Notes under the pieces: model-generated
Told to the model about the DNA's origin: nothing
Database searches by the model: none
What the model saw: the letters and a program-made list of their open reading frames with translations, nothing else
Shown: positions 10,241 to 14,183 of the stretch, in pieces
Numbering within the stretch: the first letter of the stretch is position 1
How the letters are laid out: each line of letters starts with the position of its first letter
Source: Acidimicrobiales bacterium
GTDB lineage: Bacteria > Actinomycetota > Acidimicrobiia > Acidimicrobiales > Ilumatobacteraceae
Assembly: GCA_030828465.1 (NCBI GenBank)
Contig: JAURCL010000007.1
Span: 1-61,794 of the forward strand
DNA length: 61,794 bases
Direction of reading: 5' to 3'
Made by a program: the position numbers and the translations under genes

Positions 10241-12127
10241 TCAGTCGGTGATCGCGCGGAGGAAGCGTTCCGCCTCGGCCCGGTCGCGGGTGCGTCTCAT
10301 CGGTGGCAGGGCACCGATGAGATCCCATCGGTAGCCGGCCGTGCCGAGGCGGCGGTCGAGCACGGCGACGACGCCTCGATCGGCGTCATTGCGGATGAGG
10401 CGTCCACTCGCCTGAGCGAGCATGGTCGCTGCGCGCGGAAGGTCGATCTGGCCGAAGGCGGCGCGGCCGAGCCGGTCGCGCCGCGCCGACAGCAATGGGT
10501 CATCGGGACGCGGGAACGGGATCCGATCGATGACGACGAGCGAGAGCGTGCGGCCGGGCACGTCCACCCCTTGGAAGAGTCCGGCGGTGGCGAAGAGACA
10601 GGTGGACTCGTCCTCGGCGAAGGCCGCGACGAGGGCCGGCTTCGGGAGGTCGCGTTGGGTCAGGATCGTGTGCGGTATCTGCCCGGTGAGGGCGGCTGCC
10701 GCTTCGTCCATTGCCGCCCAACTGGTGAAGAGCGCGAGGGTTCGTCCGCCGGCGGCGGTGATGAGCGCAGCGAGTTCCTCGTGGGTGGCTGCTCTGAAGG
10801 CCGGGTCGTTCGGGGCCGGCAGGTGCATCGCGCAGTACAGCAGGGAGTTCTCCCCGTAATCGAAGGGGCTTCCGACGTCGATCACCTCCGGATCTGGTAG
10901 CCCGATGCGCTCGGGGAGCGACCGGGGCACCGTTGCCGAGGTGAGGATCGCGGTGCGTCGTGACCAGACACCGGCGGCCATCGTGGGGCCGACGTCGAGC
11001 GGGGCGATCTCGAGCGAGGGTGAGCCCGGCGGGCCGGAGACGAAGGCGACGGTGTCAGCCGACGGCGAGAGCGTCCGGTCGATCATCTCGGTGGACCGGG
11101 TGAGGATCACCTGCGCGCGGAGCCGGCGTTGTCGGGCATCCTCGACGTCGGTCTCGATGGCGTTGACGACCGCTGAGGCGCGCTCGAGGGCTCCGCGGGC
11201 GGTGACCAGGGCGGAGGTGACATCGGAAGGCAGCGGGATCTCGAGGCGCTCGCCGCGGCGCCCGTCGATCACCTCGCCGAAGGCGACGCCGGCATCGGCG
11301 ATGGAGGCGATGAGGGCGGGGTCGTCGATGATCCGGCGCACGGTCGAGGCGACGGTCGTGAATCGGCCGGGGGAGAGGTCGACGCCGACGGTGTCGCTCA
11401 TGACGTCCTCGAGGACGTGCGCCTCGTCGAAGACGACGATGTCGTGCTCGGGCAGGATCGCGTCATCGGCACCGACGTTCAGGCCGTACAGGTGGGTGTT
11501 CACGACGACGACGTCCGCGGTGGCGGCGCGATCTCGGGCGACCTCAGCGAAACAGGTCGCACCGAGCGGGCACCGGTTGGCTCCCGGACACTCATCGGAG
11601 GTGACGCTCACTGCACGCCACACGGCGGGGTCGGGGAGTCGGTCGAGTTCCGCCTGGTCTCCGGTGTCGCTCGATTCGGCCCAGCCGGCGAGCGCCGTGA
11701 TTTCGTCACGTCGACCGTCGCCGAGCCCCTCGAGGGCCAGTTGGTCGTCTCCGGAGGACACCTCGGCCAGTCGTTGGCGACAGAGGTAGTTGGAGCGTCC
11801 CTTCAGTACGGCCCACTCCAGGTCTCGGCCGAGTGGTTCGCGGAGGTGCTCGGCGAGAAAAGGGAGGTCCTTGGTGGCGAGCTGGTCCTGCAGGGCCTTC
11901 GTCGCGGTGGCCACGACCACGGTGCGGCCGGCGCGCATGGCTGGAACCAGATAGGCGAGGGTCTTGCCGGTTCCCGTCCCGGCCTGCACCACGAGATGCC
12001 GACCGTCCGATATCGCCCGGTCGACGGCGTCGGCCATCTCGCGCTGTCCTGGTCGCCGCTCGGCCGCCGGTAACGCCGAGGTCGCGATGTCGAGAAGTTC
12101 GCCGACGCCGAGCGGAGCCTCGTTCAA
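10241..12127 (-). CDS. dinG: ATP-dependent DNA helicase, DinG/XPD-like
   Basis: 628 aa superfamily 2 helicase. Motif I QAGTGTGKTLAY lies near residue 45 and the DEAH box VVFDEAHVLED near 232. The cysteines of a likely 4Fe-4S domain are visible (YLCRQR, DECPGANRCPLGATC). C-terminal helicase motifs include LFTSWAAMDEA, GLFQGVDVPG and QASGRLIRNDADRG, the last matching motif VI. The role is probably 5'-3' unwinding of damaged or R-looped DNA. The TTG start overlaps the uppS stop by 4 bp (TTGA), so it is coupled to uppS. Length is typical for the actinobacterial form. Confidence 0.92.
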   Translation of the reverse strand: MNEAPLGVGELLDIATSALPAAERRPGQREMADAVDRAISDGRHLVVQAGTGTGKTLAYLVPAMRAGRTVVVATATKALQDQLATKDLPFLAEHLREPLGRDLEWAVLKGRSNYLCRQRLAEVSSGDDQLALEGLGDGRRDEITALAGWAESSDTGDQAELDRLPDPAVWRAVSVTSDECPGANRCPLGATCFAEVARDRAATADVVVVNTHLYGLNVGADDAILPEHDIVVFDEAHVLEDVMSDTVGVDLSPGRFTTVASTVRRIIDDPALIASIADAGVAFGEVIDGRRGERLEIPLPSDVTSALVTARGALERASAVVNAIETDVEDARQRRLRAQVILTRSTEMIDRTLSPSADTVAFVSGPPGSPSLEIAPLDVGPTMAAGVWSRRTAILTSATVPRSLPERIGLPDPEVIDVGSPFDYGENSLLYCAMHLPAPNDPAFRAATHEELAALITAAGGRTLALFTSWAAMDEAAAALTGQIPHTILTQRDLPKPALVAAFAEDESTCLFATAGLFQGVDVPGRTLSLVVIDRIPFPRPDDPLLSARRDRLGRAAFGQIDLPRAATMLAQASGRLIRNDADRGVVAVLDRRLGTAGYRWDLIGALPPMRRTRDRAEAERFLRAITD

Positions 12128-12822
12128 CGCACGAGGTCCAGTGCGCGGTCGAGGTCCGCGGCGTCGAAGTCGGGCCAGGCCGCGTCGGTGAAGTGGATGG
12201 CAGCTCCGGCTGCCTGCCAGAGCAGGAAGTTCGAGACGCGGATCTCACCGCTCGTGCGCACGAGCACGTCGACGTCGGGGAGCTCAGGGTCGTAGAGGTA
12301 GTCCGAGAGCTGGCTGGCATCGACGGTGCCGGTGTCCGACCTCAGTCGTCGAACCGCGGCCATCAACTCGGCCCGCCCGCCGTAGTCGAAGGCGACGGTG
12401 AGGGTCATCCCCGTGTTCGACGAGGTGTCATTGATGGCCCGACGAATAGCGCGTTGGACGTACTTCGGTGTGCGGGCCTCTGGGCCGTCGAAGGGGCGCC
12501 CGATCCATCGCACGCGCACGTTGTTCTCGTTGAGTTCCTCGAGGCGACCGAAGAGCCGCTCGTGAAGTCCGAGGATGTGCCGAACCTCGGCCCTTGGTCG
12601 CACCCAGTTCTCGGTGGAGAATCCGAACACGGTGAGCCAGCCGACCCCGCGCGCGACGGAGGCGCGCACGATCTCAGCGAGGTTCTCTTCACCAGCGGTA
12701 TGACCGGCCGTGCGGGGCAGTGACCGTTGCTCCGCCCAGCGGCCGTTGCCGTCCATGATGCAGGCGACGTGGAGCGGCCGATCGAGCCTGGGGTGCTCGC
12801 GAGGTGTTGGGGAGGTCGCCAC
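12124..12822 (-). CDS. uppS: Isoprenyl (undecaprenyl/decaprenyl) diphosphate synthase
   Basis: 232 aa cis-prenyltransferase making the polyprenyl diphosphate carrier for peptidoglycan and other envelope polymers. All landmark regions are intact: CIMDGNGRWAEQR with the catalytic Asp, RTAGHTAGEEN, WLTVFGFSTENW, and RTSGEIRVSNFLLWQ followed by IHFTDAAWPDFDAADL. The GTG start at 12822 has TAACGT 9 nt upstream on the minus strand. It heads a coupled pair with dinG. A divergent paralogue lacking the catalytic motif starts 42 bp away on the other strand, which may be functionally linked. Confidence 0.96.
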   Translation of the reverse strand: MATSPTPREHPRLDRPLHVACIMDGNGRWAEQRSLPRTAGHTAGEENLAEIVRASVARGVGWLTVFGFSTENWVRPRAEVRHILGLHERLFGRLEELNENNVRVRWIGRPFDGPEARTPKYVQRAIRRAINDTSSNTGMTLTVAFDYGGRAELMAAVRRLRSDTGTVDASQLSDYLYDPELPDVDVLVRTSGEIRVSNFLLWQAAGAAIHFTDAAWPDFDAADLDRALDLVR

Positions 12823-12864
12823 GGGAGCTCCACGTTAGCGATGGCCCCGTGCGAGAATGGGCCG

Positions 12865-13458
12865 GTGACGTCTGGTGTTACGGAGGCGGTTGGAGCGGAG
12901 GCTCGCGATCAGATCGGGCCGGCCCATGTTCTCGTCGTCGGCGGCTCGACCGATGACTGGGATTCGCTTGGAAGTTCCGCTTGGGCGGCGAGACGATGCG
13001 GTCTCGGTGAGGTGGCGGAGCGACTCGGTGTGGAGTGGTTGACGATCCGCCCGTATTCGGCGAACGGCGTGGCCGGGCTCGCTGGCCGGGTCGAGCAGGC
13101 GGATGACCGTTCGCCGGTCACCCTCACCGTCGAGACGGTTGGGTGCTGCACGGTGATCGTCGACCCAGCCGCCGATGGACGCGAGCGGTTCGCCGGGGCC
13201 ATGCGGTCGCTCGGTGACGACCCGGTGAACGAGGCCTCGGTGGCGGGCGCGCTCTACGAGCCGGCCGACTGCGAACCCGACCTCGTGCTCGTGCTCGGAC
13301 CCGCCACAAGACTCCCACCTTCATTGGTCTGGGAACTCGCCTACGCCGAGCTCGTGTTCGCCGAGGTCGCATGGGGTGATCTCGAGCCGAATCACCTGGC
13401 TGACGCCGTCGCCGAATACGCGGGCCGCCGGCGCCGCTTCGGCGGACTCGACGCGTGA
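12865..13458 (+). CDS. Degenerate UppS-like protein (cis-prenyltransferase fold without catalytic motifs)
   Basis: 197 aa protein that keeps the outline of a cis-prenyltransferase but not its active site. AERLGVEWLTIRPYS aligns with the LGVxWLTxxxFSTEN region of UppS. SLVWELAYAELVFAEVAWGDLEPNHL, followed by AEYAGRRRRFGGL, aligns with the C-terminal FLLWQxAYAExxF-DVxWPDF and RRERRFGG region. The MDGNGRW motif is replaced by VGGSTDDWD, and the RTSGExRxSN stretch by GPATRLPPS. The GTG start is 6 nt behind GAGAAT (12853-12858); ATG 12841 is an alternative. Its stop overlaps recO (GTGA). It is probably a non-catalytic partner or regulator of UppS, by analogy with eukaryotic NgBR/Nus1; this is inference. 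Confidence 0.78.
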   Translation: MTSGVTEAVGAEARDQIGPAHVLVVGGSTDDWDSLGSSAWAARRCGLGEVAERLGVEWLTIRPYSANGVAGLAGRVEQADDRSPVTLTVETVGCCTVIVDPAADGRERFAGAMRSLGDDPVNEASVAGALYEPADCEPDLVLVLGPATRLPPSLVWELAYAELVFAEVAWGDLEPNHLADAVAEYAGRRRRFGGLDA

Positions 13459-14183
13459 AGGAGCTCTATCGCGACGAGGCGGTGGTGTTGCGCACCTACC
13501 GCCTAAGGGAGTCCGACCGGATCGTCGTGCTGCTCACGAAGGAGCACGGGAAGGTCCGGGCGGTGGCGCACGGCGTCCGGAGGACGACCTCGAAGTTCGG
13601 GGGTCGACTCGAACCGATGAGCCATGTCATGGTGCAGCTACGTCGAGGACGCGAGCTCGACACGGTCACCCAGGTCGAGTCGGTCGATCGGCTCGGGCCG
13701 ATGCTCTCTTCCCTCGACCGAACCTCCCAGGGGATGGCGGCGATCGAGGCGGTGGAGCAACTCGCACTCGATCGCGAACCGACCCCCCAGTTGTTCCGGT
13801 CGACGGTCGGGGTGCTCCGAACGATCGCCGAGCATCCCTCGCCGATGAACGTGCCGGCGTTCTATTGGAAGTTGCTGGCCGCTGAGGGCCTCAGCCCGGT
13901 GCTCGATGTTTGCGTTCGCTGCGAGGAGTCGGGTGACGGGGTGGAGATCGTCGCCTTCGATCTCAACGAGGGCGGCGTGCTCTGCCGCAACTGTCGTTCC
14001 GGGGTGTCGGTGTCGCCGGCGGCGCTCTCGCTGCTGCGAGCGGTGCTCGGCGGTCGGCTCAACGAGGCGCTGGCCGCTCCGGAGAGCCCCGCCACCCACG
14101 AGGTCGGGCTGCTCGCGACGCGAGCGATGGAGCACCACCTTGAGCGACGCCTCAAGACGATCGCGCTGTTCGAACGCCACTGA
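13455..14183 (+). CDS. recO: DNA repair protein RecO
   Basis: 242 aa RecO, which loads RecA on SSB-coated DNA in the RecFOR pathway. The N-terminal OB-fold is seen in DEAVVLRTYRLRESDRIVVL and KVRAVAHGVRRTTSKFGGRL. The C-terminal helical domain has a CxxC-CxxC zinc ribbon (CVRCEESG and LCRNCRSG). The GTG start overlaps the stop of the UppS-like gene by 4 bp, so the two are translationally coupled. Proximity to uppS-type genes and glyS is a typical actinobacterial arrangement. Confidence 0.94.
   Translation: MKELYRDEAVVLRTYRLRESDRIVVLLTKEHGKVRAVAHGVRRTTSKFGGRLEPMSHVMVQLRRGRELDTVTQVESVDRLGPMLSSLDRTSQGMAAIEAVEQLALDREPTPQLFRSTVGVLRTIAEHPSPMNVPAFYWKLLAAEGLSPVLDVCVRCEESGDGVEIVAFDLNEGGVLCRNCRSGVSVSPAALSLLRAVLGGRLNEALAAPESPATHEVGLLATRAMEHHLERRLKTIALFERH

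Follow-up and report, generated by a model that had tools for sequence, protein, structure and literature searches.

Two divergent genes in an Ilumatobacteraceae genome, one for a catalytic UppS (here U) and one for its non-catalytic homologue (P), very probably encode, to judge from the residues that each has kept, a two-subunit undecaprenyl (or similar C50-C55) diphosphate synthase of the DHDDS/NgBR kind, a heteromer of U and P that would have arisen by duplication and reciprocal loss. It is also likely that this heteromer is obligate, that it is present nearly family-wide, and that it originated in bacteria independently of its eukaryotic and archaeal counterparts through in-place duplication followed by complementary loss. 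The genes lie in a stretch of 61,794 nucleotides (the window; GCA_030828465.1, contig JAURCL010000007.1, positions 1 to 61,794), in which the following features are relevant.

10241..12127, minus strand: gene for what is, by its sequence, presumably a DinG-type helicase; it follows U on the same strand, and is divergent from the single uppS in those sister loci that reach dinG
12124..12822, minus strand: U, the proposed UppS catalytic subunit, 232 aa, matching PF01255 and TIGR00055
12823..12864, no strand: divergent intergenic stretch of 42 bp between the starts of U and P; the head-to-head layout is also found in relatives
12850..12858, plus strand: TGCGAGAAT, a candidate extended -10-like element with its end 6 nt upstream of the GTG start of P
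12865..13458, plus strand: P, GTG start, TGA stop, 197 aa, non-catalytic cis-prenyltransferase homologue
13327..13356, plus strand: P residues 155-164 (VWELAYAELV), in which W156, Y160 and E162 correspond to W207, Y211 and E213 of E. coli UppS
13426..13446, plus strand: P residues 188-194 (RRRRFGG), the R-x-G tail, corresponding to R239-G245 of E. coli UppS
13455..14183, plus strand: recO, as named in the original prediction; its start overlaps the P stop by 4 nt, and in sister families the related genes come after uppS

Cis-prenyltransferases of one and two subunits

Heteromeric cis-prenyltransferases are described for eukaryotes, and homodimers for bacteria and plants (review PMC7839719). 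In the human enzyme the RxG tail of NgBR, which has no pocket of its own, crosses to the active site of DHDDS, the turnover of the complex is ∼400 times that of the DHDDS homodimer, and mutation of the RxG motif causes human disease (PMC7573591). A water-mediated contact of the RxG arginine with Mg, and one between the glycine nitrogen and the phosphate of the acceptor, are described for several cis-prenyltransferases (PMC8131916), and in decaprenyl diphosphate synthase (DPPS) of M. tuberculosis, which is a dimer of one protein, Arg292* of the tail acts from the counter-subunit (PMC6450523). An archaeal heteromer is known as well, MM_0618/MM_1083 of M. mazei, with C45-50 products (Emi et al., 2019, cited in PMC8131916). 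No bacterial heteromeric cis-prenyltransferase was found in an open-access library, as far as titles, opening lines of abstracts and excerpts go, in which subscription papers and preprints are largely absent.

P is a homologue of UppS

The original prediction was that a catalytically dead paralogue of UppS is encoded beside uppS and coupled to recO. The open reading frame is real, running from GTG at 12865 to TGA at 13458 (197 aa), and lies divergent from uppS, which starts 42 bp away at 12822, while its last 4 nt (GTGA, 13455-13458) are shared with the beginning of recO. An overlap of the P stop with a start codon recurs in 55 of 81 loci. P matches PF01255 with 46.2 bits (E 5e-12, cut-off 27), its residues 119-193 falling on positions 145-219 of the profile, and a profile built from 34 relatives of P aligns with almost the whole length of E. 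coli UppS (E 3e-22), so that profile searches bear out the proposed kinship, which is beyond chance. With NUS1 chains the match of the P profile extends as far as the tail (position 184, E 7e-5), and with DHDDS chains it stops at position 178; the kinship to NUS1 is drawn from this search, NgBR and DHDDS chains being absent among the rows listed from the structure search.

The predicted UppS fold is supported by the AlphaFold2 model of P (pLDDT 88.2, pTM 0.84), in which residues 194-197 fall below 50, as for a free tail. All 50 rows listed by Foldseek for this model are cis-prenyltransferases by title, counting 9a7x ('ISPT-SYA') as such an entry, with TM scores of 0.50-0.61 on query length that are modest, and VIA-align gives Z 10.5-11.9 and rmsd 3.0-6.3 (50 rows listed). 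The model of U has an ordinary UppS fold (Foldseek TM 0.75-0.84, 50 rows listed). The stretch of the P model that separates strands 58-62 and 88-92 is free of helices, and U has helices 77-92 and 94-99 there; a helix lining the prenyl tunnel thus appears to be missing from modelled P.

P lacks the Asp of the catalytic motif MDGNGRW and the RTSGExRxSN loop, which places it outside the catalytically competent UppS, and by its sequence it is a catalytically dead cis-prenyltransferase homologue. U is clearly a UppS by profile and fold, with 221 bits against PF01255 (cut-off 27; profile positions 1-208 of 219 covered) and 201 bits against TIGR00055 (cut-off 110), and it retains DGNGRW, FSTENW and RTSGExRxSN. 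What went unnoticed in the original prediction is that U ends early and is missing both the RRxRRFGG tail and the Y211/E213 pair.

Reciprocal loss of residues in U and P

Residues were compared in an alignment of 177 rows, comprising 81 P, 70 U, 25 full-length UppS (from 24 genomes of sister families and from genome G026) and E. coli K-12 UppS, which serves as numbering reference. The relatives' loci are those of the best 80 of 135 relatives of P; they hold 76 U, of which 69 were aligned together with the U of the window, the other seven having no start codon under the rule used (four) or running off the end of the locus (three).

The catalytic motifs of P are lost, as had been claimed, D26 being replaced by Gly, R194 by V/I/L and S202 by Pro in all 81 P, with gaps at R39, W75 and R77 in all 81 and R200 still present in 51. 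U keeps D26, G27, N28, G29, R30, R39, H43, S71, N74, W75, R77, R194, E198, R200, S202 and N203 in 70 of 70. Conversely, all 81 P retain W207, A210, Y211, E213, R239, R241, R242, F243, G244 and G245, and Y211, E213, R239, R241, R242 and G244 are mostly or wholly lost in U: 67 of 70 have Gly at position 211 and not one has Tyr there, Glu stands at 213 in nine, an Arg aligns with R239 in eight (these nine and eight were counted against a heteromer), and R242 is found in none. The RxRRFGG motif is present in 80 of 80 P vs 0 of 76 U, and the W-E/Q-x-x-Y-x-E/F stretch is retained in 80 of 80 P (both in the loci of the best 80 of 135 relatives); the tail is present in all 25 full-length UppS, and R242 itself in 24. 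Also counted against a heteromer were some U matches that reach profile positions 212-217, a few of them through a stop (among the matches listed for 200 family genomes). Among 77 columns that are at least 95% conserved in the 25 full-length UppS, U retains 47 and P 16, five of these being shared by both, and 19 are retained in neither. The loss of residues in U and P is reciprocal. One U (G036, L068) ends in RSRQGS, which is literally R-x-G and lacks the RRFGG motif.

Homodimeric UppS such as E. coli IspU, B. subtilis UppS and M. tuberculosis Rv2361c carry both the Y211/E213 pair and the RxG tail in each chain, whereas U, its active-site chain being without the tail (0 of 76; R242 in 0 of 70 aligned), has lost both and P carries both. 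P thus has the make-up of a non-catalytic subunit, a homologue without catalytic residues that retains RxG and the interface residues. In cis-prenyltransferases E213 probably acts in trans. Because the tail acts in trans in the published enzymes, P can be read as holding the trans-acting parts and U the cis-acting ones, and U is probably, on its residues, half an enzyme.

The original prediction allowed for an accessory subunit or a regulator of UppS. The former is preferred, and is supported, because the residues kept in P are those lost from U. In a regulator reading, P would bind U, membranes or another cell-wall protein and tune activity, and U would be a self-sufficient, tail-less homodimer. 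Tail-less U might work alone, since MM_0014 of M. mazei, which is without RxG, is an active homodimer (PMC8131916) and DHDDS homodimers are weakly active (PMC6921004), and P changes much faster than U. A regulator, however, would not require Y211, E213, R239, R241, R242 and G244 to be invariant in 81 of 81 P while U loses them, and in the genomes checked the absence of P coincides with a full-length UppS, with contig ends or, in two assemblies, with an interrupted P; this reading is unlikely, at about one chance in ten.

Proposed mechanism

In the preferred reading, that of a two-subunit enzyme, U would hold the sole active site, in which DGNGRW would bind Mg and FPP and RTSGExRxSN would bind IPP, with FSTENW as a further loop. 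P, which has no complete substrate site, would bind U and affect its activity, supplying the interface stretch (Y211/E213) and a flexible RRxRRFGG tail. By analogy with the known enzymes this tail would act in trans on U, spanning the interface and placing the RxG arginine and glycine at the S1/S2 sites of U, and would so complete an active site that a U homodimer could no longer complete. The position of the chain-length gate, L137 (PMC7573591), is Met in 64 of 70 U and in 18 of 25 full-length UppS. This likeness of U to full-length UppS suggests that the product is probably of medium chain length.

The proposed arrangement resembles human DHDDS/NgBR, yeast Rer2/Nus1 and plant CPT/CPTL, in which a catalytic subunit is joined by a non-catalytic homologue whose likeness to the family is mostly C-terminal (PMC7573591, PMC7839719), and NgBR supplies an RxG tail across the interface, as is proposed for P. 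Unlike NgBR, P is bacterial, is encoded by one of two adjacent divergent genes, and has no N-terminal membrane segment that can be seen by eye in its 197 aa, and for the last reason it is not filed as an NgBR orthologue. U (232 aa), in turn, differs from DHDDS in being too short for the C-terminal domain of the latter. MM_0618/MM_1083 would be like U and P a two-subunit cis-prenyltransferase of prokaryotes, although archaeal, and is likened here by description only.

If the two-subunit reading is true, the split has a further origin, in bacteria, where it serves the cell-wall carrier. The single-gene ancestor persists in sister families, which makes it possible to ask why a split was favored, and the pair lets one ask whether chain length or regulation is set by the split and which residues make pairing obligate. 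As a small and soluble system, U and P would in addition serve as a model of DHDDS/NgBR. An annotation that sees a good UppS in U would miss its probable status as half an enzyme.

Distribution of the pair

Conservation beside uppS, on which the original prediction depended, is found. P is beside recO in 80 of 80 loci, and in 76 of these U accompanies the two genes (best 80 of 135 relatives; neighbors identified by blastp with the window's own genes as reference). U is missing from four loci, L073, in which P is at the contig start, L116, L122 and L125. The genomes of L116, L122 and L125 carry U at another site; in that of L073 none was found. Of these 80 relatives, 32 have record titles with Ilumatobacteraceae or Ilumatobacter, 15 have the family Acidimicrobiaceae and 33 have no family, and 47 of the 80 loci are Acidimicrobiales by NCBI.

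Among 37 genomes of the window's family, 33 have the pair, so that a catalytic partner without RxG occurs in the same genome as P. The other four have P only (G004), an interrupted P (G015), neither gene (G019), and one full-length UppS with no P (G026). Each of 24 genomes of other families has one full-length UppS. Of 200 family genomes, counted by eye, at least two PF01255 matches are found in 175, one in 15 and none in 10, the last being 55-81% complete. Among the matches listed, for which alone U/UppS length was checked, full-length UppS occurs in G026, G061, G093 and G142, all of them without P, and the single match of G152, located at a contig end, is a partial sequence resembling an ordinary UppS. 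Where U is found without P (G175, G180, G198, G221) the contig ends on the P side, and in G161 the start of P only is found, at a contig end. P without U occurs at contig ends in G004 and G067, and G192 (75% complete) has P with ∼1.2 kb before it, in which no U was found.

Several family genomes deviate in other ways. P is interrupted by stops in G015 (L152/L162, with unread bases) and G181 (L157), with U intact in both, through either assembly error or real loss. The full-length UppS of G061, G142 and G093 (L170, L171 and L172) is of another type (RTSSE, FPWH) and groups with L026 and L027 from other families, through replacement, misplacement or contamination; G142 belongs to a genus that otherwise bears the pair. 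G167 has two truncated U-type UppS on different contigs.

In the samples searched for taxonomic spread, P is confined to the window's family. P-profile scores of at least 168 bits are found only there, other families reaching at most 109 bits (298 order and 296 class genomes), and the 11 of 396 phylum genomes that pass E 1e-33 all belong to it. No P was found by this search outside the family in the order, class and phylum samples, which overlap. In the genome of the window itself (92.6% complete), P and U are the sole PF01255 matches and mraY is present; the pair should, therefore, make the cell-wall carrier, barring a gene missing from the assembly.

Constraint on P

Rates were compared in 231 pairs with dS <1, of which 25 are listed, 13 of them with P dN <0.2. 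In these 13 close pairs dN/dS is 0.03-0.33 for P and 0.04-0.18 for U, and P of the window against L070 gives 0.18. Over all 231 pairs P has a median of 0.58 and a maximum of 0.92, values in which distant pairs look saturated. P changes faster than U (mean distance 0.99 vs 0.40). No coevolution of P and U was detected, the distance correlation given RecO and GlyRS being 0.46, not above the 0.48 of U and RecO.

These rates bear on whether P is merely what remains of the old uppS, in decay and retained only through its coupling to recO translation. It does occupy the ancestral place of uppS, with the stop-start overlap at 55 of the 81 loci, residues 1-118 evolve faster than residues 119-197 (median dN/dS 0.71 vs 0.41, saturated pairs included), and P is interrupted in G015 and G181. 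A relic would hardly, however, keep RxRRFGG and W-E/Q-x-x-Y-x-E/F in every one of the 80 loci (best 80 of 135 relatives) or hold dN/dS to the low values of the 13 close pairs among those listed, and P models well (pLDDT 88.2), which makes this the least probable of the readings considered, with barely any weight.

Probable origin by in-place duplication

In 22 of 25 full-length loci uppS is directly before recO on the same strand, and dinG, which is reached in eight of these short loci, is on the other side and strand. In the longer stretch from G026 (L057) the order is dinG (minus), uppS (plus), recO (plus), glyS (plus), and in pair-bearing family genomes it is dinG (minus), uppS (minus), P (plus), recO (plus). 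P is in the ancestral uppS place and U is on the opposite strand. We infer that one in-place inverted duplication with reciprocal loss gave rise to both: after a duplication of uppS in the interval from dinG to recO, the copy left at the original site would have become P and that on the other strand U, and each would then have shed what its partner supplies.

In a tree of 21 P, 18 U, the 25 rows L003-L027 and four full-length family rows (one of them the L023 protein), P and U each form one clade (100/100), both on long branches. When P and U are held together as one clade, a common origin is not rejected (p-AU 0.194). Since the tree has no archaeal, eukaryotic or other-phylum rows, the reading of the origin is taken from gene order. 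The alternative that the whole pair was imported from an archaeal or eukaryotic heteromeric cis-prenyltransferase would agree with the long branches of P and U and with the existence of such enzymes there (PMC8131916, PMC7573591), but P shares the place and strand of the uppS that precedes recO in sister families and is in no other family among the order, class and phylum samples; import is very improbable.

Upstream region and minor features of the locus

The element TGCGAGAAT (12850..12858) would fit a promoter -10 with a leaderless P transcript, and in 19 of 81 loci, where ∼0.8 would be expected, TGNGAGAAT is found 3-8 nt before a P start, the distance being 6 nt in 13 of them. A scan of 12700-13000 for promoters (sigma-70 consensus) and terminators found nothing. 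U (12124-12822) has lineage-fixed changes compared with ordinary UppS, which include A69G, N144D and Trp at 109, together with an insertion P-F at U 110-111, and the loss of the tail does not explain them. The gap between P and U is 664-700 bp in L109, L110 and L112 and at most 206 bp in the other 67 of the 70 pairs measured.
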